The notes beneath the pieces were generated by a model. That model did no database searches, was not told the origin of the DNA, and saw only the letters and a list, made by a program, of their open reading frames with translations. A program made the position numbers and the translations under genes. A stretch of 17,364 bases of DNA from Candidatus Pelagibacter sp. TMED118 (GTDB taxonomy: Bacteria; Pseudomonadota; Alphaproteobacteria; Pelagibacterales; Pelagibacteraceae): contig NHFT02000004.1 in the NCBI GenBank assembly GCA_002170205.2, positions 24,153 through 41,516 on the forward strand. The letters run 5' to 3'. Of the stretch, positions 1 through 16,102 are shown piece after piece; within the stretch, counting starts at the first letter, position 1; each line of letters starts with the position of its first letter.

Positions 1-410
1 CATTTTAAATTACAGGTGTTACCAAAGTTGAGATCCATGTGTCTCAAATTCATCGGAGCTTCAGCTTGATATTCATACGGGTTTGGTTTATTTTGTACTT
101 TTTCAAAAATCCAATGGCGTCTACTGCTACCCAAACTATCTTCTGTTTTCCAACACTTTTGACACCTGTCAGGCTTTTCACCTCGAATCATTTGTTCTCT
201 TAATTCGTCCCAGTGTTTCCATGCTTCTTCAAATGTATTACCGTCGTATATGTTAAAATCTCTATTGCTACGATAATTACAACAAGGTTTTATATCTCCA
301 TTTGCACTCAAACAGATACTGGTCCATGGTACTATACAAGTTGGATAACCATCTGGAAATGGATCTCCTGCTCTATATCTCGGTTGATTTGGATGTGGTT
401 TATCTGTCAT
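1..410 (-). CDS. Radical SAM protein with N-terminal twitch-like domain (partial, 3' end missing)
   Basis: The visible 136 residues are the N-terminus; the frame runs off the low-coordinate edge. A Cys-rich block comes first: C25 in CIVPW, the pair C43-C44 in GDIKPCC, then C83 and C86 in RCQKCW. This matches the twitch/SPASM-type auxiliary Fe-S cluster region that in some proteins precedes the radical SAM core. The last residues, NTCNLK followed by a codon beginning TG, are the start of a CxxxCxxC radical SAM cluster motif (C133), so the edge cuts the catalytic core. The ATG overlaps the stop of the upstream gene in an ATGA, implying translational coupling. The block closely resembles that of the next protein upstream (407-1813), so the two are probably paralogs. 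Substrate unknown. Radical SAM assignment is firm; the twitch label rests on pattern. Confidence 0.85.
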   Translation of the reverse strand, partial: MTDKPHPNQPRYRAGDPFPDGYPTCIVPWTSICLSANGDIKPCCNYRSNRDFNIYDGNTFEEAWKHWDELREQMIRGEKPDRCQKCWKTEDSLGSSRRHWIFEKVQNKPNPYEYQAEAPMNLRHMDLNFGNTCNLK

Positions 411-1813
411 AATATCTCTGCCAATATAGGAAACACTTGAGGAAATTTATTTCCCCAATTACGTTGTTGATTAATTACATTAATCCATTCTTTCATTTCA
501 GGTAAACGCTGACTCCAGTCTTCACTGTTCATAAAATTAATAATACCTTGATAGCGTTTTATTCCATATGGATTTTGATCGAATGTTGCTTTGTCTATAC
601 CCAACTCTTGTACGCCAGTAAATCTATGCCAGTTTTCATCTATCCAAGGATAAAATTCATTTTCATATTTGTCACTGATTTTTTGTTTTATATGTGCTGG
701 TAATACTTTCAAGTTAAGTTGTGGTGGCCAATAAGCAAAATGCATGTTAATACCGCCTGCACCCAAGGGCCATTTGTTGATCTTTTTAAAGTTTTGATCT
801 ACTTTCCACTTGACAAACTCTGGTATATAAGCTACATTGAGTGCCATAATAGTAGTTGCTGTAGTAACTTCTACTTGTGGTGCAGTATTATCCAACAAAT
901 GAAATACCTTTTCTTGGTGAGCCCATTGAGTTGGATAGCGTATATAATCGTTGTGTTCGCCATGTGCATCTATGCTGTAGTGAAAACGTACACGTTTGAA
1001 CTCTGCCCATAAATCAAATAAATCATCACGCCATTCAACTGCATTTGAGTTATAGCGTAATTCAATATTTTTAGCATAGCCCTGACGTATACATTCTTCT
1101 AATAGGTCATAGTGTTCGTCAATGATCAAACTCTCACCACCAGCAAAGTATAACTGATACATGTGCGGAATTTGTTCCATAAGTTCCTTCCAGAAGCGTG
1201 GATTGTTTTTGTGCCAGTTGTAGCTGGCTCCATCATTGCGTCCTTTGTTTTCCCATGCTTGACTCTTTTGTAGATTTTTATTTTGTAACTGTGGATATAT
1301 ACTTTGCCATTCTTTGATCCAACCACTGCTATCATGTGGACTACACATAACACAAGCCAGTTGACACTTGGTTCCCATACGCAAATCAATGTAGCGTATT
1401 TTAGGATCTATACTGCCATCTTCTGCTGTTTCTTTAGCCATGTCAAATAGATCATAGCGTTTTAACCAATAGTTTGTTTCCCAATTACGTTTTGATAGAT
1501 GTCCTGCTTCTTCCTCTTTGTAGCATTTAAGACAAGGTGCTGGCTTTTCACCACGCAACATCATTTTGCGAACATTACGCATGTAATCCGAATTCCAAGC
1601 ATCAGCCAAACTGGTATGATTGAAGTTTGCTGGAACTCCATCATCATTTTTAACAACGCCGACTTCTCCGCCGCCTACTTTTTTACTACTGTCTGGATCT
1701 TGTACACTACTGGCATTGCTTGTACAACAGGTACGCATCTTACCGTCGGGTCTTGAACTCAAGTGCAACCAAGGTAATGCACAAAATGTCGGACTTATTT
1801 TATCCGTTTTCAT
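407..1813 (-). CDS. Radical SAM protein with N-terminal twitch-like Cys domain
   Basis: 468 residues. The N-terminal block has C11 (FCALPWLHL), C29-C30 (GKMRTCC) and C94/C97 (CLKC), the expected ligands of an auxiliary Fe-S cluster placed before the core. The radical SAM signature CQLACVMC gives C150, C154 and C157. YFAGGESL near residue 240 is the GGE-type SAM-binding strand, and a strand with SIDAHGEH follows, as in the usual partial TIM barrel. Radical SAM enzymes make a 5'-deoxyadenosyl radical from SAM; twitch/SPASM members act on peptides, sugars or cyclitols, and nothing here fixes the substrate. The gene follows 1828-2910 after a 14-nt gap and has only a weak ribosome site. It probably belongs to the transcript starting at the promoter near 5373-5401. 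The C-terminal 150 residues are rich in Trp and aromatic residues and were not assigned. Confidence 0.9.
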   Translation of the reverse strand: MKTDKISPTFCALPWLHLSSRPDGKMRTCCTSNASSVQDPDSSKKVGGGEVGVVKNDDGVPANFNHTSLADAWNSDYMRNVRKMMLRGEKPAPCLKCYKEEEAGHLSKRNWETNYWLKRYDLFDMAKETAEDGSIDPKIRYIDLRMGTKCQLACVMCSPHDSSGWIKEWQSIYPQLQNKNLQKSQAWENKGRNDGASYNWHKNNPRFWKELMEQIPHMYQLYFAGGESLIIDEHYDLLEECIRQGYAKNIELRYNSNAVEWRDDLFDLWAEFKRVRFHYSIDAHGEHNDYIRYPTQWAHQEKVFHLLDNTAPQVEVTTATTIMALNVAYIPEFVKWKVDQNFKKINKWPLGAGGINMHFAYWPPQLNLKVLPAHIKQKISDKYENEFYPWIDENWHRFTGVQELGIDKATFDQNPYGIKRYQGIINFMNSEDWSQRLPEMKEWINVINQQRNWGNKFPQVFPILAEIL

Positions 1814-1827
1814 ATTATTACTTATTT

Positions 1828-2910
1828 CTATCTAAACTGCTCAGCAAATGGATCGAATTCAGTTCCGCACTTCATAGCACATACTCCAAGTTTGCCTTGC
1901 TCAATGCTGGGTAAGTTCCAACTTTGTTGTATATCCTGTAATAAATTACCGTCTATTACAGATTTTAAATCATTATCAATTACATCTATTCCTTCTTTAC
2001 CACCAGCTCTATCAATAAAATCCCATATTTGTTCTACTCTTGGATCTTTATGCCACCACTTGTACATGCGTCCTGCTGTCCAACAGCAAGGCATTAGCAA
2101 GCCTTCTGCTGTAATAAAGATGTTTTTTTCTTCTACTACTTTGCATTTAATTGAACATTTATCATAATAGCCCATCATAGTACCGTAGGTTTTTTCTATT
2201 TCTTTTTGTTTTAATAGTGCTAGATTTTGGTTGTCCAACTTTTTAGGTTTTTCTAATAGTTGTGTTTGACTTCCTTTTCTATTTACTGCTTGATGTGTGT
2301 CTTTCTTTTTACTGGTAGCACTAAAGAAACGACCTGACTTCTTTTTTTGAAAACGTTCAACTCCCCAGTCGTGTGCTAACTGCTCTGCTTCTTCAACTTG
2401 ATGTTCGTTGTGTCCAAATATAATAAAGTCCCAACGAGCTCTACCACCAGCATCTATAAACGCTCGCATGTTGCGTTCTACATTATCCCAATTTACATTT
2501 TGTCTGTACAAATGATTTGTGTCACGCAAGCCATCAACACTAAAGATTACTGCACCTCTGCTTCCAATTATTTTGGCTAATTCACGCCACCATTCAGCAC
2601 TCTTGGCTCCAGCATTTGTATTCATGCTCAACCACATTTGTTGATTGTTGTGTCTGAATAAATCAAATACTTCCAATGTATCTTTGGCTACTATAGGATC
2701 TCCCAAGTTGCCACACATGTACATTGTGTTCAACTGTTCAATAAAGTCTGAAGGAAATATTGCTTGACAGTCAGCTAGACTTAACTCACTGTTATCTATA
2801 TGACGGTTATCAGCACCACCATTTTCATTTCGATCGCACATTGGACAAGCGGCTTGACAGCGTTGTGTTATTTCTAAATGTACGGTCCTAATATCTTTAT
2901 AGCTATACAT
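1828..2910 (-). CDS. Radical SAM protein with C-terminal SPASM/twitch-like domain
   Basis: 360 residues. The signature CQAACPMC near the N-terminus gives C18, C22 and C25, preceded by a HLEITQR strand. The core continues with CGNLGDP, where radical SAM proteins of this type carry a G-x-GEP-like loop, and VIFSVDGLRDTNHLYR, a strand typical of MoaA/SPASM-type enzymes. The C-terminal region has C252 and C256, C275-C276 in LLMPCCW, and C344/C348 in VCAMKC, consistent with one auxiliary Fe-S cluster. The domain order is thus opposite to that of its downstream neighbour at 407-1813. A Lys-rich insert (about residues 188-225) separates the core from the cluster domain. The ATG overlaps the preceding 74-residue gene by 8 nt. 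Substrate unknown; peptide, sugar or cyclitol are all possible. Confidence 0.88.
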   Translation of the reverse strand: MYSYKDIRTVHLEITQRCQAACPMCDRNENGGADNRHIDNSELSLADCQAIFPSDFIEQLNTMYMCGNLGDPIVAKDTLEVFDLFRHNNQQMWLSMNTNAGAKSAEWWRELAKIIGSRGAVIFSVDGLRDTNHLYRQNVNWDNVERNMRAFIDAGGRARWDFIIFGHNEHQVEEAEQLAHDWGVERFQKKKSGRFFSATSKKKDTHQAVNRKGSQTQLLEKPKKLDNQNLALLKQKEIEKTYGTMMGYYDKCSIKCKVVEEKNIFITAEGLLMPCCWTAGRMYKWWHKDPRVEQIWDFIDRAGGKEGIDVIDNDLKSVIDGNLLQDIQQSWNLPSIEQGKLGVCAMKCGTEFDPFAEQFR

Positions 2911-5401: not shown

Positions 5402-5511
5402 TCATATATAAATGGATCTTTTTCTCGTAATTCTTTTAGTTTCTTTTTACGCCAACGATACTCTTTGTATTTGGTCCATGGCAGTAAAATAAAATCAATT
5501 ATTGCTCGCAT
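5398..5511 (-). CDS. 37-residue basic protein with hydrophobic N-terminus
   Basis: The predicted protein starts MRAIIDFILLPWTKYKEY, continues with a strongly basic run (RWRKKKLKELREK) and ends DPFIYD. The layout is a short hydrophobic/aromatic segment followed by a basic amphipathic helix, suggesting a peripheral membrane or nucleic-acid-contacting peptide. The ATG lies inside the end of the epimerase gene (13-nt overlap) and is preceded by AAGGGA with about 6 nt spacing. The stop overlaps the -35 box of the promoter at 5373-5401. From memory, very short proteins with this layout and a DPFIY-like ending occur in marine T4-like phages; that recollection is not a database result. Function unknown. 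Confidence 0.7.
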   Translation of the reverse strand: MRAIIDFILLPWTKYKEYRWRKKKLKELREKDPFIYD

Positions 5512-6443
5512 AGTTTTTCCCTTATATATTCAATTGTTCGTTCAAGTCCTGTTTGCCTATCAACAGTAGGTGACCATGCAAGTTGTCCAATAGCTTGACT
5601 GATATCAGGACAACGTCTCTGAGGATCATCAACTGCACTGTCTTGATGTACTATTTCACTTGTACTGTTGGTTAAATCAATGATTTGTTCAGCTAGGTCA
5701 ATAAGTTGTATTTCATCTGGATTGCCTATATTAACAGGTCCCTGAAGATCACTGTTCATTAATTCAATTAATCCACTGGCAGTATCTTCAACATAACAAA
5801 AACTTCTTGTTTGTTTTCCATCACCGTGCATGGTAATTGGTTTGTTTTGTAATGCTTGAATTATAAAATTGCTTATTGCTCTACCATCATTTAATGCCAT
5901 ACCAGGCCCATATGTATTGAATATTCTTGCAATGCAAGTGTTGGCAGTACTGATAGTACACATGGTTTCAGCTACACGCTTGCCTTCGTCATAACAAGCT
6001 CTAGGACCTAGTGCATTTACATTCCCCCAATATTCTTCTTTTTGTGGTGTTATCAATGGATCACCATACACTTCGCTGGTGCTGGCTTGTAGCATTCTCG
6101 ATCCTGATTGCAAGCTCAATGATAGCATGTTGCGTACACCATCTATATTTGTCATCAGTGTACACCATGGATCTGTTTGATAGTGTACAGGACTGGCTGG
6201 ACAAGCCAAGTTGTATATTTGTTTTAAAGGATTTAATAAACCCATTGGGCGAGGATATTCTGTTGAATCTCTTACATCACGCTGTACAAAATAAAAACCA
6301 TTTCGTCCAAAAAATTGATCAATATTTGATTTACTGCCTGTGTAGTAATTGTCCAATCCAATTACTATTTCACCTCGATCTAAAAGTTGTCGAGTTAATT
6401 CACTGCCTAATAATCCTGCGGCTCCTGTTACTAATATTGTCAT
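5499..6443 (-). CDS. UDP-glucuronate decarboxylase-like NAD-dependent epimerase/dehydratase
   Basis: 314 residues of an extended short-chain dehydrogenase. The N-terminal TGAAGLLG (G7, G10, G13) is the NAD-binding GxxGxxG loop. YNLACPASPVHYQ (77-89) is characteristic of UDP-glucuronate decarboxylase, which converts UDP-glucuronate to UDP-xylose. STSEVYGDP (121-129) and YDEGK (Y151, K155) supply the catalytic residues, and DDPQRRCPDIS carries the conserved Arg region. Length fits the single-domain bacterial enzyme. The frame is open to a GTG at 6452, but ATG 6443 forms an ATGA overlap with the upstream stop and puts the NAD loop at the usual position. It would supply a pentose nucleotide, a 4-keto intermediate, or a related sugar for the neighbouring glycosyltransferases. 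A related decarboxylase/epimerase specificity cannot be excluded. Confidence 0.88.
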   Translation of the reverse strand: MTILVTGAAGLLGSELTRQLLDRGEIVIGLDNYYTGSKSNIDQFFGRNGFYFVQRDVRDSTEYPRPMGLLNPLKQIYNLACPASPVHYQTDPWCTLMTNIDGVRNMLSLSLQSGSRMLQASTSEVYGDPLITPQKEEYWGNVNALGPRACYDEGKRVAETMCTISTANTCIARIFNTYGPGMALNDGRAISNFIIQALQNKPITMHGDGKQTRSFCYVEDTASGLIELMNSDLQGPVNIGNPDEIQLIDLAEQIIDLTNSTSEIVHQDSAVDDPQRRCPDISQAIGQLAWSPTVDRQTGLERTIEYIREKLCEQ

Positions 6444-7192
6444 ATGTACCACAACCCTAACTGTTTTAAACTGTCAATTTTTGCACTGTCTCCTAGGAAC
6501 TGTTTGGTGTTGTCCCAATCCTCATAAGCATACTTACCTGTTACATGAAACACCTTCCAATCAGCATCTATATCAAAGTTGTGTCCAGTGGGAAATTCAA
6601 CGGGATCTAATAGTTTAATATAATTTTTTGGTAAATGTTTTAGATGTGTGTTTACAAACTTCTGACATGTTTGTGCTTGTCTATATCCGTTTGCATACAG
6701 ATAATCTGTTTCGCAAAGTGCAATGTTTTCTCTTGTACATCTCATACCAAACATACCTGTACCACAGTTGTATTCACTGTGTGCATCAATTGGATCACCT
6801 AACCAAGCATATTGTTTTACACTTTGACAGATCATATCAGTACCTTGTTTTAGCTGTTCTTTAATATGAACTGTAAAGTCTCGTTGAGCAACACAATCAA
6901 CATCTGTATAAAACCAGTTTAATCCACATTTCATAATCTGTTGTCCTACTATAAACTTGTAAACAAACACATGATGATTGCCTTGCGGTATATGTACAGT
7001 TGGTACTTTAGTCGCCATCACAAGATATGTTTTAAGATCCAGTGCAATATACAACAAAGGAATATTCAATCGTTGGCAATTTTCTACCCAATTCATTGTA
7101 AGTGGTAATACAGATTCATCACCCATACACCAAAACACTGTGTCCGTTCCGTCGGTTAAACTTCGACAATAGTCTTCAATTGACTTTAGCAT
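6440..7192 (-). CDS. Putative nucleotide-diphospho-sugar transferase (glycosyltransferase-like)
   Basis: 250 residues from the chosen start. WFYTDVDCVAQRD carries the D97-V98-D99 motif that binds metal and nucleotide sugar in the nucleotide-diphospho-sugar transferase family, and it follows the expected strand and helix (GQQIMKCGLN). YNCGTGMFGMR looks like the later donor/acceptor loop of such enzymes. The open frame continues to 7297, but AAGGAG at 7199-7204 sits 6 nt before the ATG at 7192, so the longer start is rejected. The start overlaps the end of the oxidoreductase/radical SAM fusion by 17 nt and the stop overlaps the epimerase in ATGA, placing it between two sugar-type enzymes. I infer transfer of a sugar made by these neighbours; donor and acceptor are unknown. 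Confidence 0.7.
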   Translation of the reverse strand: MLKSIEDYCRSLTDGTDTVFWCMGDESVLPLTMNWVENCQRLNIPLLYIALDLKTYLVMATKVPTVHIPQGNHHVFVYKFIVGQQIMKCGLNWFYTDVDCVAQRDFTVHIKEQLKQGTDMICQSVKQYAWLGDPIDAHSEYNCGTGMFGMRCTRENIALCETDYLYANGYRQAQTCQKFVNTHLKHLPKNYIKLLDPVEFPTGHNFDIDADWKVFHVTGKYAYEDWDNTKQFLGDSAKIDSLKQLGLWYI

Positions 7193-9506
7193 TTTGGTCT
7201 CCTTGATAAAATGCTTGAACACTAACGGTGTCTGTTGCTTGTGCCTTACTGGCGATTGGTCCAAGTGTTTCACCAATACCGTATTCATTATCAGCACGAC
7301 TTTGATTTATTATTAAACTTATTATATGTTCATAACTGTCCATAAACTCTGTGTCACCTTTTTGTATTTGCACTGGCTCACCTGTTTGAATCCACTGTTT
7401 AACAATAGTTTCCAAGGTTGTGTCGGCTGTTACTTGTCCAATGATATATCTATCGTTGCCTGGTCTATCCAAAAATCCTGCTTCTCTGCACAAAAACACA
7501 CAACCATATGCATCAACAACAAGGTCCACTTGCGGAAATCCTTTGGGCAACATTTCCTTTTCTGTAATACAATGCATTGTTGGTGCGTCAATACCTTTGC
7601 TGAGTGCATTCAAGGCATATCCATAGTCAATGTGCAAACGATTAAGATGTTCATCATGTCTACGCTGTTCTATTTTTTGAAACACCTGTTTAATTTTTGT
7701 TCTATCACCAAATGTATCCAGTTCGTTTGGCTTTTGAAAGTTTTCTCTCAGTGTAATAAAATCAATTTGATCGCCTGCTGTTTGATTTATTTCTTCAATT
7801 AAATCAATTACTTCATAAAGATCTTCTTCTAAACCTGGCAATATAACATAATTAAATCCAAAACGCAACCTTTTATTGTTTTGTTTTTTGTAACGCAAAA
7901 AATCTATAGCGTTTTGCTTTACACGTTCAAAACCTTTTTTGTGTTTGGTCACTTGCTCATACACCTGTTGATTGCTTCCGTAAAGACTTATACGCAATAC
8001 TTCTAGTTTAAACAAGTCTGGATTTGCATCAACAAATTTTTCAGTAAGTAAAAACCCATTGGTATACAAGCTAAATTTAAAACCTCTTTCATATCCTGCA
8101 CTGATTAGTTTCATCAAATCTGGATTGGTGAGTGTTTCTAATCCACCACTCAAATAAAATCTATAAGGATCATCGTTGGGTGCAGTTTTAATTAAATTTA
8201 CAATATGCGGAGTTGTTTCTCTTAGTGGAGTCTTTTTGTATGCGGCATTTGTTTCCATGTTGCGTCCGCAAAAATGACACCAAAACATACAGCTTTGTCC
8301 AATATGCAAACCTATTCTGTGTGGGTAACTGTATTCATTGTTGAGTACATTGCGTATTGTACCACTTTGTGTAAGAGGTACTATTGTGTTTTTCCAATAC
8401 TGCTGATTGCGTATGTCCTGTGTGATTACCTGTTGAACAAAACTGCTGTTTCTCATTATGGTGTTTATATCCAACAGTTGTGTTTGACTTATGTTGAGGT
8501 GTTCTGCTATAGTTTGTTGTGTAATAAAAGGATTTTCGCTGTATAAATCAATAATTTTTACAATGTTATTGATCATTTCAACAAGTTTACTGTCATACCT
8601 ACTGTCAGCAAATCCACAGTCAATGCTATCTCTTGCTGTATAAAGTCCTACAATACTGGATCTATCAAAATGTTTATCAAACCTCACATTATTTAAATGT
8701 TGTTGTTCAAGTTCTTGTACACTTTCACAAATTAACTCAGTAATCCAACGAGTATTTTTTGCTGTATTGTCTAGTATTTGTGTTTTATAATCTATTATTC
8801 CATGTACAAAGTTTTCCAGTTGTCTATCCAATGTAAGTCCATCATCTTGACTGAAGTCATATGTAAGACCATCAATGTTTATTTCTCTGGTGTTTTTACT
8901 GTCGCGTTCAAAACTTATGTCAACAATAGTACCTGCAAAATCCAATAACCATATAACGCCTGTCGGTGTTTGTGTTGTTTTTAATACTTGACATTGATCT
9001 GTTTTTAATATATGCCTCAGTATACTGAGAGCATGTGGACCAATATCTTCTAGTACACTTATAGTTGGATCACTAGCATAGTGTTCGCCATGACGTTCAA
9101 CGTTATTTTTGCTGTTCCATGTGATGTGGACAGCTTTGGGTTTGTGTTTAACTTGTAGTGCAATTTCATTTATTCGACTACTGTGTAACATTTCAAGTCC
9201 AACAAATAGTTTTGTGCCTTTTTGTTTGGCTAGTTTGACCAATTCATCATGCTGTTCAAGTGTTCTTACAAAAGGTTTTTCAACCATTAAATGTCTACCA
9301 TCTGAGATCAATTCTACTGCACTGGCATAGTGGTCATCAGGTAAATTTGCAATCCATACATGATTGCTATCCAAACTCAATAGATTATCAACACTTGGCA
9401 TACTAGTATTATGAGTGTAAAACTGTGTTTGATATTTGTTTTTACTGGCAACACGATCAATGATTCTAGCCCATCGACCACCACCTACTATTCCAAGGGT
9501 ACGCAC
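7176..9506 (-). CDS. Fusion protein: Gfo/Idh/MocA oxidoreductase plus radical SAM domain
   Basis: 776 residues from the chosen GTG. Residues 1 to about 275 form a Gfo/Idh/MocA-type NAD(P)-dependent sugar oxidoreductase: GIVGGGRWARI at the N-terminus is the dinucleotide loop, VEKPF (75-79) holds the family's EKP motif, and EDIGPH (153-158) matches the catalytic D-x-G-x-H region. A linker of about 120 residues follows; ITQQTIAEHLNISQTQL within it resembles a helix-turn-helix. The radical SAM core starts near residue 400 with CMFWCHFC (C406, C410, C413), then YLSGGLETL (GGE-like) and a LYTNGFLL strand. The C-terminus has a twitch-like patch with MHCITEKE and GCVFLCREAGF. The frame is open to a TTG at 9533, but GGAG lies 7 nt before the GTG at 9506, which puts the Rossmann loop at the very N-terminus. 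I infer paired redox and radical steps on one sugar or cyclitol, for example deoxygenation or epimerisation. Confidence 0.88.
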   Translation of the reverse strand: MRTLGIVGGGRWARIIDRVASKNKYQTQFYTHNTSMPSVDNLLSLDSNHVWIANLPDDHYASAVELISDGRHLMVEKPFVRTLEQHDELVKLAKQKGTKLFVGLEMLHSSRINEIALQVKHKPKAVHITWNSKNNVERHGEHYASDPTISVLEDIGPHALSILRHILKTDQCQVLKTTQTPTGVIWLLDFAGTIVDISFERDSKNTREINIDGLTYDFSQDDGLTLDRQLENFVHGIIDYKTQILDNTAKNTRWITELICESVQELEQQHLNNVRFDKHFDRSSIVGLYTARDSIDCGFADSRYDSKLVEMINNIVKIIDLYSENPFITQQTIAEHLNISQTQLLDINTIMRNSSFVQQVITQDIRNQQYWKNTIVPLTQSGTIRNVLNNEYSYPHRIGLHIGQSCMFWCHFCGRNMETNAAYKKTPLRETTPHIVNLIKTAPNDDPYRFYLSGGLETLTNPDLMKLISAGYERGFKFSLYTNGFLLTEKFVDANPDLFKLEVLRISLYGSNQQVYEQVTKHKKGFERVKQNAIDFLRYKKQNNKRLRFGFNYVILPGLEEDLYEVIDLIEEINQTAGDQIDFITLRENFQKPNELDTFGDRTKIKQVFQKIEQRRHDEHLNRLHIDYGYALNALSKGIDAPTMHCITEKEMLPKGFPQVDLVVDAYGCVFLCREAGFLDRPGNDRYIIGQVTADTTLETIVKQWIQTGEPVQIQKGDTEFMDSYEHIISLIINQSRADNEYGIGETLGPIASKAQATDTVSVQAFYQGDQNAKVN
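7199..7204 (-). promoter_or_regulatory. Ribosome binding site deciding the 7192 start
   Basis: AAGGAG on the minus strand, 6 nt upstream of the ATG at 7192. It is among the best Shine-Dalgarno matches in the window and shortens the sugar-transferase gene by 35 codons relative to the longest frame. Confidence 0.85.
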
Positions 9507-10972
9507 ACTTCTACTCCGTACTGTTTGGTCCAACGATCAGCATCTTCTCTTGTGTTAATCAAAGGTTCGCCTTTTATGTTTAAACTTGTATTGAGTAACA
9601 TAGGACAGCCTGTTGTTTCATACCATCGTTCTAGTAAACTCCTCAATCCTGGAGCACTTTGTTTGGTTACTGTTTGTACTCTACTGGTATTATCATAGTG
9701 TACGATTGCAGGAAATTTATCAGGATATTTGCATTCACTAACGTACTGCATAAAGTCTCCGGTTATTCCTTCAAAGTATTCGCTTGCATGTTCTTGGAGG
9801 ATTGCTGGTGCAAAAGGTCTGAATGCTTCTCTGTGTTTGATTTTGTTGACTCTGTCCTTAACGCTAGATCCACGGGGATCAGCAAGAATACTACGGTTGC
9901 CAAGAGCCCGAGGGCCAAACTCAGCACGACCAGAGGCAACCGCTGTAATTTTTCTTGTGTGTAATTGTTCGAGTAATTTTTCAACTGGATATTCTCCTTG
10001 TATATCATGTCCTAGAAACGCATGTGGCATTTCTAAAAATTGTTTTGTTTGTGCTAGTACACAACCAATGGCACTTCCAGCATCACCTGGATTGGCGGGA
10101 ACATGTATATTATCAAAGAATTGTTGTGCTAGTGGATTTGCAACACAATTTAAAGCACAACCTCCAACAATAATTAAATTATCTATTTTACGTTCAGTAA
10201 GATCACTGGCTTTTTTGCAAAATTCTTGAAACACTTCTTGATATACGGCTTGTGTCGCCGCGGCTATATCCGCATAATCCTGTGGTCGATTTATTCCAGG
10301 TAACCAATCCAAACAACCTCTGTGACTGTTCCTAGCAAAAATTACACCATGATTTTCATTTGGATAGCTTATAAAAAAATCTTTCTTTATACGATCATAA
10401 AGCCTTAAAGGATCACCTATTGCCGCCATGCCCATGAGTATGTATTCGTGTTCTTGTGGTTTTAGTCCTATACGCTGTGTCATAGCACTATACCAAATAC
10501 CCATGCTGTCAGGATACTTTTGACTCCATAGTTTTTTTAGCTTACCATCTTCTCCTGTCCATATGCTGGCTGTTTCCCATTCACCAATACTATCAATTAC
10601 TAATATTACTGCACGTTCATAAGGACCGGTGTAATATGCATAGGCTGAGTGGCTTAAATGATGACTAGTTGTAGTGCAACTAGGTGCCTTATTATAGAAT
10701 TTGCGTATATATGTAGTAGGTGATTCTTTCTTCAGTAGTGTGTATTGCTTTGCATACAACTGTCTAGTCTTTTTAAGCCAAGGACGCTCATAATAGCATA
10801 TTCTATCTGGTTCACCGTACTGTAATGCTTCATCGACTATGGATTGATTGAGATGTTTATCGTTCTTAATTCTACTGTAACGTTCACTGTGTGCCGCAAA
10901 TTCTAAACCATTATCTGAAAATACCGCAAGGCTGGCGTCATGTGACATTCCGGTCCAGCCCCATGTAATCAA
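9488..10972 (-). CDS. NodU/CmcH/TobZ-family O-carbamoyltransferase
   Basis: 494 residues from the chosen TTG. Members transfer a carbamoyl group from carbamoyl phosphate, through carbamoyl-AMP, to a hydroxyl of a sugar or antibiotic. The N-terminal GWTGMSHDASLAVF is the family's first phosphate-binding strand. HHLSH (H104, H105, H108), followed by AYAYYTGPY, carries the metal-binding His residues of the Kae1-like domain. GGCALNCVANP (270-280) and GRAEFGPRALGNRSILADPR (348-367) are hallmark segments, and FRPFAP lies at 384-389. Length is slightly below that of antibiotic carbamoyltransferases. The longest frame begins at TTG 10990, but the TTG at 10972 has GAGG 8 nt upstream and forms a TTGA overlap with the upstream stop. 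The 3' end overlaps the next gene by 19 nt. It likely carbamoylates the glycan product made by this cluster; the acceptor is unknown. Confidence 0.93.
   Translation of the reverse strand: MITWGWTGMSHDASLAVFSDNGLEFAAHSERYSRIKNDKHLNQSIVDEALQYGEPDRICYYERPWLKKTRQLYAKQYTLLKKESPTTYIRKFYNKAPSCTTTSHHLSHSAYAYYTGPYERAVILVIDSIGEWETASIWTGEDGKLKKLWSQKYPDSMGIWYSAMTQRIGLKPQEHEYILMGMAAIGDPLRLYDRIKKDFFISYPNENHGVIFARNSHRGCLDWLPGINRPQDYADIAAATQAVYQEVFQEFCKKASDLTERKIDNLIIVGGCALNCVANPLAQQFFDNIHVPANPGDAGSAIGCVLAQTKQFLEMPHAFLGHDIQGEYPVEKLLEQLHTRKITAVASGRAEFGPRALGNRSILADPRGSSVKDRVNKIKHREAFRPFAPAILQEHASEYFEGITGDFMQYVSECKYPDKFPAIVHYDNTSRVQTVTKQSAPGLRSLLERWYETTGCPMLLNTSLNIKGEPLINTREDADRWTKQYGVEVCVPLE
9514..9517 (-). 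promoter_or_regulatory. Ribosome binding site deciding the 9506 GTG start
   Basis: GGAG on the minus strand, 7 nt before the GTG at 9506 and inside the end of the carbamoyltransferase gene. The alternative TTG at 9533 has no comparable site. Confidence 0.7.
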
Positions 10973-11160
10973 TGTTGAGTCCTCACGCAAACGGCTTGTT
11001 GTCCCGGAGGAAAATATCCATCTTCATCACCAATCCTAGCTAGCATTTCATCTCTTGCTACAAAACATTCATACATCCAATCAAATGTTTTGCCCGTACC
11101 TGCACCATTAAATGCAACAGGTTCTGTGCCTGCTAGAAATATTACTACTAGTACCCACAT
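10969..11160 (-). CDS. Small exported-looking protein of unknown function
   Basis: 63 residues. The first ten (MWVLVVIFLA) are a short hydrophobic run followed by GTEPVAFNG, so a short signal peptide or anchored N-terminus is plausible; the run lacks basic residues before it, which weakens this. The rest has two Cys (C32 in MYECF and C58 in AVCVR) that could form a disulfide if exported, and a FDWMYECFVARDEMLARIG helix-like stretch. The ATG overlaps the upstream stop in TAATG, and the stop overlaps the carbamoyltransferase start in TTGA, so it is tightly coupled on both sides. Small secreted proteins with a spaced Cys pair and an F-D-x-W/Y-x-C-like segment are, as I recall, common in marine phage genomes. 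Function unknown. Confidence 0.65.
   Translation of the reverse strand: MWVLVVIFLAGTEPVAFNGAGTGKTFDWMYECFVARDEMLARIGDEDGYFPPGQQAVCVRTQH
10981..10984 (-). promoter_or_regulatory. Ribosome binding site deciding the 10972 TTG start
   Basis: GAGG on the minus strand, 8 nt upstream of a TTG whose last two bases begin the upstream stop codon (TTGA). This is the TTG counterpart of the ATGA junctions elsewhere in the window and puts the conserved GWTGMSHDAS strand at the usual distance from the N-terminus. Confidence 0.7.
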
Positions 11161-11555
11161 TAAAGCTCACCTCGCTCTCGCATTTCTGCACGGATTTTTG
11201 TAGCACTAATATCGTGTACATCTTTACCTAGGTCATGTTCAGTAAAAGTATAACCTACTCCTCGACCCCAGCTGATGTTTACTATATTAGGAACCTTCAT
11301 AACAATATATTCATGCCCATGCTCAAAACCGTGTTTTTTAAGTGCTAACCAAATTGGACTTACAACGTCTTGGTAGTCCCATGGATTATCTGTGTTGCCC
11401 ATGCCAGCATCAGCACCTTGTACATCTCTGACCATAATACATACCTGCCCGTGTTCAGCTTGTATACGTTTAAACAATTCAGTATGTCCATCATGCCAAG
11501 GTTGCCATCTTCCTAACATCTGAGCTGTGGGTTTTTTCCAATCAAATATTGTCAT
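11160..11555 (-). CDS. Small HxGH nucleotidylyltransferase (cytidylyltransferase-like fold)
   Basis: 131 residues. GRWQPWHDGH (15-24) contains the HxGH motif (H21, H24) that binds the nucleotide triphosphate, in the G-R-aromatic-Q-P-x-H context typical of nicotinamide-mononucleotide adenylyltransferases and related enzymes. ISATKIR (116-122) is the second conserved element, the ISxTKIR type. The family transfers a nucleotide onto a phosphorylated substrate, releasing pyrophosphate. The protein is shorter than archaeal-type NMN adenylyltransferases and has lost no obvious core motif. GGAG lies 8 nt before the ATG. The gene overlaps the preceding CysC-like kinase by 14 nt, so kinase and nucleotidylyltransferase probably act in sequence. 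NMN adenylylation, sugar-phosphate activation and an ATP-sulfurylase-like role are all open; the ATP-sulfurylase QxRN context is absent. Confidence 0.82.
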   Translation of the reverse strand: MTIFDWKKPTAQMLGRWQPWHDGHTELFKRIQAEHGQVCIMVRDVQGADAGMGNTDNPWDYQDVVSPIWLALKKHGFEHGHEYIVMKVPNIVNISWGRGVGYTFTEHDLGKDVHDISATKIRAEMRERGEL

Positions 11556-12033
11556 TTTCTATTCTCCATGCCATATATCCAACTGGTGTTGTATTTTGTT
11601 TTTTCATAAAACGTTCTACAACTGGTACTAGTTGTACATGTGTATCATTAAACCATTCAGCAACATGATAATCAACATCTGCTTTTTTAGGAGTTTCAAA
11701 CATACGATTTGTATCCTCGTATCTTCCTTCTGGTATTGTATCCATCCATACAACAAAATCAGGTTTAAACTTTTCTCGTGCCTCTCCAGTAGGACAAACA
11801 AAATCAGCTACAGCAATTTTTCCTGACATAACAATACCGTCTGCTAGATGACGCATACGGTCTGCTTGACGTATTCTACCTTCAGGACTAAAGTCCCATT
11901 TGCTCATATCATGCCCTTCGTACTTTCTGCGTACTTCGTCTGCGTTGATATGCACTCCACCTAATAGTTTTGCAAGCGGTTCTGCTAGTGTAGTTTTTCC
12001 ACTACCGGGCAGTCCGAATATCAAGATTTTCAT
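11542..12033 (-). CDS. P-loop kinase of the adenylylsulfate-kinase (CysC) type
   Basis: 163 residues. The Walker A loop GLPGSGKT (7-14) is at the N-terminus. HINADEVRRKY (about 32-42) matches the D-x-V-R segment of adenylylsulfate kinases, and ADFVCPTGEAREKF resembles the family's ISPYR/FVCPT substrate-binding stretch. VVWMDTI and GRYEDTNRMFETP follow as in CysC relatives. The C-terminal KGLYKKARAGEI-like segment of true APS kinases is not visible, so the substrate may be something other than adenylylsulfate. AAGGA lies 8 nt upstream of the ATG. The 5' end overlaps the upstream unknown gene by 32 nt and the 3' end overlaps the nucleotidylyltransferase by 14 nt. It may phosphorylate a sulfate donor or a sugar/alcohol that the next enzyme activates. 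Confidence 0.83.
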   Translation of the reverse strand: MKILIFGLPGSGKTTLAEPLAKLLGGVHINADEVRRKYEGHDMSKWDFSPEGRIRQADRMRHLADGIVMSGKIAVADFVCPTGEAREKFKPDFVVWMDTIPEGRYEDTNRMFETPKKADVDYHVAEWFNDTHVQLVPVVERFMKKQNTTPVGYMAWRIENDNI

Positions 12034-13422: not shown

Positions 13423-14110
13423 TATCCAAACCTTTTTTAATCATTTGTCCTAGTATACGATTGCCGTTACGATTAAAATGTACAAAGTGGACATCTTTTT
13501 TGTAAAACAATTTTTCAGTTGCAGATTGGACATTCAAATACTTAATATATTTATATGGGTATTTAATTCCTGTAAAACTGTAAGCATATGTTGGTAGTCC
13601 TGTGCGTTCTGCAAGTGTATCCAAATGACTTGCACAGGCATTTGCAAGCATGTCCCATCCTGGTTTCTTTTCGTTCATTTCATAAAACCAACTGTTCATT
13701 GTATCCTGCCAAGTAAATTGATAACGTGTAGCCAGTTGGCTACTTTGATTGTGTAGTCCGCCTAACTTGTTGTGAAATATGTTTTGTATACGCCACAAAT
13801 GAACATTATGTCTTTGTCCTTGTTCATATAACAGTTCTTGTTGTATTACAATTCTAGGCTCAAATGTTTCTTGTATGATAATGTGACTGTATTTGGAAAG
13901 ATCTATTTTTGACAAACATTGACAATACGCCATAAGACCTCCACCTGGGTGTGCATATGCTGTATAGTTTATACCAAGTTCATCATACCAACAGTAATCT
14001 TGATGCAATTTTTCATTGCTGAATTCATCTGGTTCGAAATTGGTAATGCCTAGTTGAGCCCAGGTATAGTGACCAGCCGAAAAACTGCATCCAAGTATCA
14101 ATAGTTTCAT
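13412..14110 (-). CDS. SGNH-hydrolase-like protein (paralog B)
   Basis: 232 residues. LLILGCSFSAGHYTW (3-17) is the block I strand and nucleophile loop with S9 as candidate catalytic Ser. AHPGGGLMAY fits the block II glycine region, HIIIQETFEPRIV matches IIVQKTYEPRLV of the downstream paralog, and VHFNRNGNRILGQMI (H211) matches the C-terminal His block without a clear Asp. Both proteins share GCSF, PG-x-G, a signature IIxQxTxEPRxV and the His-block layout, so they most likely arose by tandem duplication. The ATG overlaps the upstream radical SAM stop in ATGA. Function is inferred to be ester hydrolysis or acyl transfer; a non-enzymatic role is possible. Confidence 0.7.
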   Translation of the reverse strand: MKLLILGCSFSAGHYTWAQLGITNFEPDEFSNEKLHQDYCWYDELGINYTAYAHPGGGLMAYCQCLSKIDLSKYSHIIIQETFEPRIVIQQELLYEQGQRHNVHLWRIQNIFHNKLGGLHNQSSQLATRYQFTWQDTMNSWFYEMNEKKPGWDMLANACASHLDTLAERTGLPTYAYSFTGIKYPYKYIKYLNVQSATEKLFYKKDVHFVHFNRNGNRILGQMIKKGLDNVL

Positions 14111-15354
14111 GTGTATCCAGGCCCTGTGTCCTTGCTGTGTGCTTGCTCTACAAATGTTGTCATGTTTCCATAGTCTGCGTATCTTCTGTATTTCATAAGT
14201 CTAGGGTCTTGTAATACTCGTAAAAAGTCTTCATGTTCAGGGTGTGTGTTTTTCCAAATTGCACGTTCGTCATAGTCTGACATATGACCCCAATCTAATA
14301 TCAAACTAAACGTAGCCATGCTTTCTTTTATGTTAGGCTTTACCCAACGCTCTACGACCATTTGTAAAAAGTCTGGAATCTCTTTGTAGTTACAAGTCTG
14401 TACAACAAAATTATGATTCAAATGAAACTTTTCATAGTTGTTATAATTGTTGAAAATATAATCTACATTCTTAATAAGTGGATCCCAATGACCTCCCAGT
14501 CTTGTTTGATTTTCGTATGTATCTTTTGTACCTGCATCAAAACTGAATATAATACTGCCTATATTGTTGTGTAATTTGCTAATGCTGTTCCATACTTTAG
14601 GAGTAAGCATAACTCCATTGGTTTGAAAATGTATTTCTGTATTTGGTCTGTCAGTCAAGTCCATACTTTGTAAACGTTCTCTAAAAATTTTACTGCCAAA
14701 AGGATCACCTCCACCTGTTACCCACATTTTAATTGGATAGTCTTTGGGCGTAGCAAGTATTTCGTCAAATATTTTATCAGTTAACCACTTGCGTTTTTCA
14801 TATATCTTACCACTAGTGTGCATGATTTTATCAGCTCTACAACTAGGACATTTAAGATTACAACTTTCATCTGTTCCGATTTGAATATCATGTGGAAAGA
14901 ATTCAGCTACAGTACTTTTATTTTTAATAGCATTAACTTCCCAGTCACTCAGCTGGTGATAGTCAAAATCTTCTGGATTGTTACTGAAACGTTTTGCATC
15001 AATATCTTTTATGTATATTAATTCATTTTGATTTATTTTAGGACAAGTTTTGTGTCTACACAAGGGCCAGTTATTGCCATCAAATAATTGTTGCCTTACT
15101 TTTTGTGCAGTAGGACCGTTCCACATTTCCTTGATGGTTTGTGTTTTTAAGTCACCTATAATTACAGGTAACCAATTTGGACAACACATAAACACTCTAC
15201 CAGAAGCGGCAATCTCTGCTCTATTGTAAAAATATCCGCAGTATCTTCCGTTTAGATTTTTATCGTCAGCACGGATTAAACTTTCGTCTAATTCTGCACC
15301 ACGTCCTAATCTAATCGAATCTTGCACTACATCTGCTACAGAGGTCGATGTCAC
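14107..15354 (-). CDS. Radical SAM protein with N-terminal twitch-like Cys domain; start uncertain
   Basis: 415 residues from the chosen GTG. An N-terminal Cys block (C39 in YCGYF, C57-C58 in FMCC, C99 and C104) resembles that of the radical SAM proteins at the low-coordinate end. CNLKCPSC gives the radical SAM ligands C165, C169 and C172. WVTGGGDP is the GGE-like strand and HFQTNGVML the next core strand, followed by SFDAGTKDTY. The frame is open to 15522, which would overlap the upstream gene by 212 nt; residues there read as an out-of-frame shadow. The GTG at 15354 has AAGGG 7 nt upstream and leaves a 44-nt overlap; a GTG at 15327 would leave 17 nt but has no ribosome site. The real start is probably one of these two. 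The stop overlaps the first SGNH-like gene in ATGA. Substrate unknown. Confidence 0.85.
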   Translation of the reverse strand: MTSTSVADVVQDSIRLGRGAELDESLIRADDKNLNGRYCGYFYNRAEIAASGRVFMCCPNWLPVIIGDLKTQTIKEMWNGPTAQKVRQQLFDGNNWPLCRHKTCPKINQNELIYIKDIDAKRFSNNPEDFDYHQLSDWEVNAIKNKSTVAEFFPHDIQIGTDESCNLKCPSCRADKIMHTSGKIYEKRKWLTDKIFDEILATPKDYPIKMWVTGGGDPFGSKIFRERLQSMDLTDRPNTEIHFQTNGVMLTPKVWNSISKLHNNIGSIIFSFDAGTKDTYENQTRLGGHWDPLIKNVDYIFNNYNNYEKFHLNHNFVVQTCNYKEIPDFLQMVVERWVKPNIKESMATFSLILDWGHMSDYDERAIWKNTHPEHEDFLRVLQDPRLMKYRRYADYGNMTTFVEQAHSKDTGPGYT

Positions 15355-16102
15355 AGCGTTTCCCTTCGGCCAACAAGGCTTTATATTTTGCGTATTGGTT
15401 GTTGTTCCAGACATCAACAGGACTTGTTTGCATGTCAACTTTACCCACAGGATTACGTTTACCAAAGTCCCATGGGCACAAATACATTGTACCATCGATG
15501 TATATAAATGCTTCATTTTCAACTTTTTTGCAGGGTAGATTTAAACTTTCAGTTTGATCTTCCCAAGGGTGTTGATATAATTTTGTTATCTTAGCACAGC
15601 CTGGTCTTACATTATTCCAATAATCCAAAAACTTTTCTTGTTCAGCTTCGGTGTCTGGTAAATCAATCATTCTAACTTCACAGTCTATTTCTGGATGGTT
15701 ATCTACAAACCTTGTTACGTTTTCGTACACTTTATCGAAACTTATTCCTCTGGTTTCATCAAAAGTTTTTTTGGTAAATCCATCAACACTAAAACGTATT
15801 ATGTCAACAAAAGGTGCAATCTTTCTTTCTGTTTTAAGTGTCATGGGTTCACCATTACTGTTTAATTCTACTTTTGCTGTAGGATCTTCTTTAATATATC
15901 TTGCTATGTCTGGAAGTCTTGTATCAACCAATGGCTCACCTAATCCAAAAGGTCTATAAGTTATACCCATGTCTCTAGTATCATCTATAATTTTATAAAT
16001 TAAATCAAGTTCCATGTGTTCTTTTGGAACTAAATGATTTGGACAAAACCAACAAGTTGCATTGCAAAATGTTGTTGTTTCTATTTGGAGGTATTTAAAC
16101 AT
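15311..16102 (-). CDS. Radical SAM protein with C-terminal SPASM domain
   Basis: 263 residues, compact for the family. CNATCWFC gives C13, C17 and C20, preceded by the YLQIETTTF strand. GLGEPLVD (53-60) is the GGEP-type SAM-binding loop, and IIRFSVDGFTKKTFDETR the typical following strand and helix. The C-terminal cluster region has C191, C209 in GTMYLCPWD, and C250, C255 and C258 in CDIDLCSRC, followed by the stop. This is the pattern of SPASM radical SAM enzymes such as those that modify peptides or aminocyclitols. The ATG overlaps the aminotransferase gene by 22 nt, so the two are probably co-translated. Radical dehydrogenation followed by transamination, as in some aminocyclitol pathways, is a tempting inference only; the substrate is not shown by the sequence. 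Confidence 0.9.
   Translation of the reverse strand: MFKYLQIETTTFCNATCWFCPNHLVPKEHMELDLIYKIIDDTRDMGITYRPFGLGEPLVDTRLPDIARYIKEDPTAKVELNSNGEPMTLKTERKIAPFVDIIRFSVDGFTKKTFDETRGISFDKVYENVTRFVDNHPEIDCEVRMIDLPDTEAEQEKFLDYWNNVRPGCAKITKLYQHPWEDQTESLNLPCKKVENEAFIYIDGTMYLCPWDFGKRNPVGKVDMQTSPVDVWNNNQYAKYKALLAEGKRCDIDLCSRCSARFD
15362..15366 (-). promoter_or_regulatory. Candidate ribosome binding site for the 15354 GTG start
   Basis: AAGGG on the minus strand, 7 nt before the GTG at 15354, inside the end of the upstream radical SAM gene. Those bases also encode part of AEGKR there, so the match could be coincidental. Confidence 0.45.

Follow-up and report, generated by a model that had tools for sequence, protein, structure and literature searches.

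The locus examined here raises the question of whether a gene that appears to join an oxidoreductase to a radical SAM enzyme is real and, if it is, what the joined protein does. The gene lies in a 17,364-nucleotide stretch of contig NHFT02000004.1, filed under Candidatus Pelagibacter sp. TMED118; we refer to this whole stretch as the window.

One reading frame encodes two complete domains

A first-pass annotation of the window had proposed a single-chain fusion of a Gfo/Idh/MocA oxidoreductase and a radical SAM enzyme at positions 7176 to 9506. These coordinates were exact, and the gene sits on the minus strand, where a single 776-amino-acid (aa) frame runs from a GTG start (9506 to 9504) to a stop at 7176; the plus-strand frame over the same positions has many stops.

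7176..9506, minus strand: fusion gene of 776 aa, with an N-terminal Gfo/Idh/MocA domain and a C-terminal DesII-like radical SAM domain
9514..9517, minus strand: GGAG, likely ribosome-binding site from its sequence, 7 bases 5' of the GTG start

Pfam searches placed PF01408 (GFO_IDH_MocA) at residues 21 to 103 (41.3 bits; gathering cutoff, 24) and PF04055 (Radical_SAM) at residues 402 to 569 of the same frame (44.5 bits; cutoff, 29.5), in agreement with the proposed fusion. Structure prediction gave a confident model of the 776-aa protein with two complete folds, one Gfo/Idh/MocA and one DesII. A check of domain architecture found both domains in 42 of 54 homologues, and five viral contigs carry fusions with 57 to 72% identity. 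Since the fusion is thus present in many separate assemblies, we excluded both chance and an assembly error as what joins the two genes.

The C-terminal half has a predicted full-length DesII fold

Structure comparison matched the C-terminal half to DesII over its full length. The best PDB matches of the fusion by far were two DesII sequences, and the other 21 among the matches listed were Gfo-type proteins that align with the N-terminal half. The cluster-binding cysteines are where the first-pass annotation had placed them.

7242..8714, minus strand: complete DesII fold, residues 265 to 755, with helical N-domain, radical SAM barrel and C-domain
8268..8291, minus strand: C406-x3-C410-x2-C413, the SAM/[4Fe-4S] cysteines
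7482..7484, minus strand: E675, equivalent to DesII E408 by alignment and conservation
7338..7340, minus strand: D723, equivalent to DesII D456 by alignment and conservation

The three cysteines are invariant in alignment A1 (53 rows: the window plus 52 of the 54 homologues, with P0011 and P0026 left out) and in a wider alignment of 158 rows in six groups. All six groups of the wider alignment keep the GGE motif and the R/S of the ribose motif, and the ribose Tyr is missing in 2 of 158 rows. At the position of E675 the residue is Glu except for Gly or a gap in 1/27, 1/18 and 5/33 rows of three groups, and at D723 it is Asp except for a gap in 1/27 and 2/33 rows. In DesII, the D456A mutant is inactive, and E408 is the proposed general base even though E408A and E408Q remain active (PMC11434129). 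On the DesII equivalog model TIGR04426, the fusion scores 357.6 bits, under the cutoff of 450; the Streptomyces griseofuscus desII product, for comparison, scores 855.6 bits.

The first-pass annotation had also pointed to a C-terminal patch of cysteines (C646, C669 and C673), and this part did not hold, as the alignment shows no conserved cluster site there. Within the phage clade to which the window belongs, C646 is Cys in 24/24 rows of the 53-row alignment, C673 in 20/24 and C669 in 5/24, and each of the three positions is Cys in 0/29 nonclade rows. We therefore rejected an auxiliary Fe-S cluster at these cysteines; the DesII structure that the radical half matches has a single cluster (PMC11434129). 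The wider alignment showed further differences between this clade and the other rows at active-site neighbors. Residue N589 is present in 28/29 clade rows and is Asp elsewhere, E726 is present in 29/29 and is mostly Asp elsewhere, and C673 is present in 25/29 and is mostly Tyr or Phe elsewhere.

The N-terminal half keeps the Gfo/Idh/MocA catalytic residues

The nucleotide-binding glycines, the E-K-P lysine and the catalytic His are all present in the fusion, and the two catalytic motifs lie at the residues first assigned to them. No Pfam model for the Gfo C-terminal domain matched the window's fusion, but the fold, with its C-terminal alpha/beta substrate domain, aligned over about residues 1 to 270.

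8712..9506, minus strand: complete Gfo/Idh/MocA fold, residues 1 to 265
9273..9281, minus strand: E76-K77-P78, Gfo catalytic lysine motif, with K77 in 42/44 fused rows
9033..9047, minus strand: D154-x-G-x-H158, Gfo catalytic Asp/His, each in 44/44 fused rows

Every tested motif of both halves was kept in 40 of 44 fused rows. The misses were K77 in P0002, the N-terminal glycines in P0010 and P0048, and both the glycines and K77 in P0047, an N-terminally incomplete fusion that was counted as fused here and not in the DesII tree or its approximately unbiased (AU) test. In many clade rows, the second strand is followed by S/T and then R, N or H, and not by an acidic residue (exceptions include P0024 and P0036); judged from these residues, the putative cofactor leans toward NADP(H). 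The fold aligned with NDP-sugar 3-dehydrogenases and with the 3-ketoreductase KijD10. It also fits GnnA, WlbA, GenD2 and KanD2, which work in the oxidative direction, so the fold is compatible with either reduction or oxidation. The NCBIfam model for UDP-GlcNAc 3-dehydrogenase gave a weak match of 35.2 bits, far under its cutoff of 450.

The fusion gene is carried by a phage

The contig of 108,455 bp encodes a portal protein, a protease, a major capsid protein, baseplate proteins and an SbcCD-like protein, and its capsid protein is 69% identical to those of phages such as PA5oct. It is a phage contig that was placed in a 1.18-Mb bacterial bin, and the binning is wrong. We rejected a host chromosomal origin on the basis of these phage genes and the presence of the fusion in 0 of 150 related genomes, 11 of which gave weak part matches. 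The genes around the fusion and their homologues at the five loci of the phage clade are as follows.

5499..6452, minus strand: UDP-glucuronate decarboxylase (UDP-xylose synthase) homologue (4gll/2b69), in 5/5 clade loci
6440..7297, minus strand: next gene, PF03407 glycosyltransferase-like, an open frame with uncertain start that overlaps the fusion and adjoins it in 5/5 clade loci
9488..10990, minus strand: O-carbamoyltransferase homologue, overlapping the fusion start, homologue in 3/5 clade loci
15311..16102, minus strand: radical SAM/SPASM protein, homologue in 5/5 clade loci, placed immediately upstream of the fusion at L093 and L094
16081..17106, minus strand: HisC-like class I PLP aminotransferase, with a homologue in 5/5 clade loci

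The decarboxylase gene lies downstream of the fusion, past the glycosyltransferase, and its product matched UDP-glucuronate decarboxylase 1 (E value, 1e-93). In the flanks examined, the UDP-xylose synthase signature was found in 5/5 clade loci versus 0/100 other DesII-family loci (105 of 107 loci counted), the five clade loci being syntenic relatives and not independent. No UDP-glucose dehydrogenase that could feed this enzyme scored over the cutoff in the bin. The 108-kb contig, probably less than a whole phage genome, has no DegT aminotransferase, nor do the examined flanks of the sister loci (0/5), and the rest of the bin gave three weak partial DegT matches only. Taken with this UDP-xylose synthase context, the changed residues of the clade suggest from sequence an altered substrate, possibly a UDP-pentose.

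DesII-family genes are repeatedly paired with Gfo genes

We compared 107 DesII-family loci, 58 from named genomes and 49 from viral contigs; these loci are related, so the pairing counts are not independent. A local HMM check found 10 fusions (L032, L034, L040, L065 and L090 to L095). A locus of a cyanobacterial metagenome-assembled genome (L087) has a tblastn match to residues 51 to 758 that is broken into short frames; it may be a broken eleventh fusion and was not counted. A separate Gfo gene was no more than 60 bp away in 23 loci (14 Pelagibacteraceae, 8 viral and 1 archaeal), with the Gfo gene of the archaeal (thaumarchaeote) pair on the opposite strand, and a further 8 loci had one within 2.5 kb. 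Among 27 actinobacterial loci, a Gfo gene was found within 60 bp in none and anywhere in the flanks in 8, and DegT-flanked viral DesII-family loci had a Gfo gene in 0 of 18. Some viral contigs carry a Gfo domain fused to an FAD-dependent DAO domain, beside a DesII-like gene.

The fusion had no match at an E value of 1e-5 among 50,697 named phage records, and 72,556 plasmid records gave five with separate desII or separate Gfo matches only. A search for a standalone sister of the Gfo half found none, as all six matches look like fusion fragments: five are 182 to 249 aa long and lie on short contigs, and the sixth, of 456 aa, continues into the DesII half.

A DegT aminotransferase is the type of enzyme that produces the DesII substrate. 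A DegT gene abuts the fusions L034, L040 and L065, which are three of the five fused loci outside the window's clade and come from two organisms, L040 and L065 being from one strain. By local HMM, the DegT neighbor of L034 scored 481 bits and those of L040 and L065 scored 84 bits; the NCBIfam DesI model gave 98 bits for the L065 neighbor. Both L040 and L065 also have a dTDP-glucose 4,6-dehydratase-like gene. At L032 and L095, each of which has one short flank, no DegT gene was found.

Fused Gfo domains form one clade and fused DesII domains do not

Our trees were quick and unrooted, and the Gfo trees used chosen subsets of rows. In the first Gfo tree, 26 fused Gfo domains formed one clade (SH-aLRT, 99), the adjacent SAR11 and viral Gfo genes formed a second (100), and the archaeal copy fell outside on a long branch. 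With more outgroups, 16 fused rows still formed one clade (100), and the fused, adjacent and archaeal rows fell in a larger group (98) together with seven metagenome proteins (P0166 to P0172). Gfo genes from the Streptomyces clusters are not part of that larger group and clearly belong to a different Gfo lineage. An AU test rejected a clade of the known paired Gfo rows alone (P = 7e-6), a result that rests on P0166 to P0172, whose genomic context is unknown. We withdrew an earlier view of two or more origins for the pairing, since the fuller tree puts fused and adjacent Gfo rows in one group; the pairing may reflect one old event or several. This made us slightly less confident of the reaction that we propose below.

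For the DesII tree, the 158 rows were cut to 92 by removing sequences shorter than 320 residues and those sharing more than 80% identity with a retained row. The 28 fused rows in it did not form one clade by their DesII halves (8 changes; AU test, P = 4e-51), and classical actinobacterial DesII sits among the fused rows. A single old fusion from which some lineages later lost the Gfo domain would account for this tree, and so might transfer, or fusion of one Gfo lineage more than once. Speculatively, in one lineage of marine T4-like phages an old deoxysugar synthase with two activities could have become a radical oxidoreductase that modifies UDP-pentoses, needs no amine leaving group and relies on a clade-specific cysteine and the in-chain reductase. 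The standalone DesII of macrolide producers would derive from a fused ancestor of this kind that lost its reductase. We hold this history to be tentative and rather unlikely.

Proposed reaction and alternatives

The first-pass view that one protein combines an oxidoreductase with a radical step is supported. By analogy with DesII, we lean narrowly toward a bifunctional nucleotide-sugar enzyme that carries out radical elimination at C4 to a 3-keto-4-deoxysugar and then reduction of the ketone by the Gfo half. The radical half would cleave SAM at its single [4Fe-4S] cluster, abstract hydrogen from C3 of an NDP-hexose or NDP-pentose and expel the C4 substituent (ammonia in DesII) to give an NDP-3-keto-4-deoxysugar. 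The N-terminal half would reduce the 3-ketone with NAD(P)H as KijD10-type 3-ketoreductases do, with K77 and H158 as the predicted catalytic residues by comparison with KijD10. The labile keto intermediate would not need to leave the protein. The final product may be used by the adjacent glycosyltransferase and carbamoyltransferase and become part of the decoration of a surface glycan as the phage infects. This two-step reading is favored by the full-length DesII fold and PDB matches, the conserved equivalents of E408 and D456, the motifs kept in both halves, the 10 fused and 23 adjacent pairs, the DegT genes abutting three fusions, the Gfo alignment with KijD10 and 3-dehydrogenases, and the Gfo genes, though of a different lineage, in macrolide-type clusters with desII. 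Against it stand the subcutoff TIGR04426 score, the missing DegT gene on the contig and at the sister loci, the substitutions at N589, C673 and E726, the many relatives without a close Gfo partner, and a Gfo fold that suits oxidative enzymes as well.

Several of these opposing points would fit a different chemistry in the phage clade, one that would start from UDP-xylose or from the 4-keto sugar that precedes it and would release no amine. The DesII-like half would oxidize C3, or invert it with hydrogen supplied by a cysteine, and re-reduction of the ketone by the Gfo half would give a C3 epimer or other UDP-pentose. DesII itself oxidizes C3 of TDP-quinovose. There is precedent for both steps, as DesII dehydrogenates a 4-OH substrate (PMC11434129) and NeoN supplies a hydrogen atom from its Cys249 (PMC10991966). 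The clade-restricted UDP-xylose synthase, the lack of DegT on the contig and in the flanks, and the clade-specific C646, C673, E726 and N589 all point this way. However, the five loci are relatives, the UDP-xylose synthase may belong to another branch of the gene island, the conserved class I aminotransferase might provide an amine, and the bin yields no UDP-glucose dehydrogenase over the cutoff, so we regard UDP-pentose chemistry as possible but unlikely.

It is more doubtful that the Gfo half acts first, as an oxidant that supplies an aminotransferase with a 3-keto sugar in the manner of GnnA or WlbA, with the radical half working on a later intermediate. GnnA and WlbA are among the high-ranking Gfo fold matches, and the weak NCBIfam name agrees with them, but that score is far under its cutoff and DesII already gives a 3-ketone, which would make a prior 3-oxidation redundant. 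That the two domains serve one pathway at steps that have nothing to do with each other, and are tethered merely for coexpression, seems quite improbable: the scattered fused DesII domains mean that Gfo may be lost or dispensable in some lineages, but the pairing recurs widely, and both halves keep full motifs in most rows. The wrong binning could speak for an artifact that joins two genes, but recurrence in separate assemblies refutes this for the gene itself, and its probability is close to nil.

Relation to known enzymes and significance

Elimination followed by in-chain reduction, the reading that we favor, has several partial parallels. In the AprD4/AprD3 system, radical elimination to a keto sugar is followed by NAD(P)H reduction by a second protein, with an aminoglycoside as the substrate. 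The logic is like that proposed for the fusion, which is set apart by its single chain; in a comparison of profiles, the AprD4 family was absent from the fusion's 22 NCBIfam matches at E values up to 0.01. The fusion is 31% identical to DesII (TDP-4-amino-4,6-dideoxy-D-glucose ammonia-lyase; PDB 8hzv/8hzy) and differs from it in the extra N-terminal Gfo domain, the subcutoff equivalog score, the lack of a DegT partner on the contig and H727, which is Gln in 27/27 actinobacterial DesII sequences. KijD10 (3rc1 and others; a 3-ketoreductase of the Gfo/Idh/MocA family by PDB titles) is a standalone protein with 14% identity to the Gfo half, and many other Gfo enzymes match the fold as well or better. 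A plasmid cluster of S. griseofuscus combines macrolide genes with annotated genes for DesII, a DesI-type aminotransferase and a Gfo/Idh/MocA protein, an arrangement that we take to resemble the chalcose (lankamycin-type) route with its 3-ketoreductase; unlike in the fusion, these are separate genes, with the Gfo gene about 2.4 kb away and of another lineage.

At the level of sequence, a DesII-family enzyme covalently joined to a Gfo/Idh/MocA oxidoreductase is real and recurrent, and we met no description of such an enzyme: searching titles and the starts of abstracts, mostly in literature outside subscription, returned no paper on a Gfo/DesII fusion. Which factors steer DesII toward deamination, dehydration or dehydrogenation is still being worked out (PMC11434129). 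As DesII is a model radical SAM lyase, the fused family, with its candidate 3-keto reductase, and the phage branch, with altered active-site neighbors and a pentose-type gene context, are natural variants with which to test its choice of reaction. These genes suggest synthesis of 4-deoxy sugars, or of rare sugars of another kind, by marine phages and SAR11 bacteria.

Phage contig and gene island

The 1.18-Mb bacterial MAG (G000) in which the fusion gene was binned includes a T4-like phage contig, C3 (108,455 bp), which includes the window and carries 18 of the bin's 26 Radical_SAM matches. Two features accompany the fusion gene on this contig.

Window 407-2910 and 14107-16102; C3, about 10-51 kb: gene island rich in radical SAM
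Window 11160-12033: two adjoining genes; one product is small and P-loop kinase-like, the other contains the stretch G-R-W-Q-P-W-H-D-G-H

The island holds numerous additional radical SAM genes, the product of one of which belongs to the twitch-domain family NF033640 with a strong score of 422.8 bits, together with glycosyltransferase-like, 2OG-oxygenase, and carbamoyltransferase genes. Homologues for the small gene pair are present in the fused loci L090 to L092, and we take the G-R-W-Q-P-W-H-D-G-H stretch to be a nucleotidyltransferase-like motif. Another contig of the bin, C12, has radical SAM, 2OG-oxygenase, and HAD-nucleotidyltransferase fusion genes at positions 1-20000 (locus L140), a region that is perhaps a further part of the same phage.

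Partners of DesII-like genes

In the DesII-family alignment, position 727, four residues past the essential Asp, is Gln in all 27 actinobacterial DesII sequences (27/27) and His in most non-actinobacterial members. A compact Gfo/Idh/MocA (Gfo) family of about 240 amino acids, with 116 database matches, accompanies DesII-like genes in SAR11 genomes (the Pelagibacteraceae loci within L036 to L086). At six viral-contig loci, the DesII-like gene adjoins a fusion of a Gfo domain to an FAD-dependent DAO domain, identified with Pfam for L096 and with local HMMs and NCBIfam for L097, L101, L105, L121, and L137. The DAO gene in SAR11 and in one archaeon is unfused but lies nearby.

At 18 further viral-contig loci, the DesII-like gene adjoins DegT aminotransferase genes, the type that makes the DesII substrate.

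DesII-like/DegT viral loci: L098-L100, L102-L104, L106-L109, L111-L116, L119, and L120

Several of these loci have two DegT genes, and an epimerase/dehydratase-like SDR is present in 16 of the 18. The DesII-like/DegT loci of these phage contigs may represent a cassette for a desosamine-like amino sugar.
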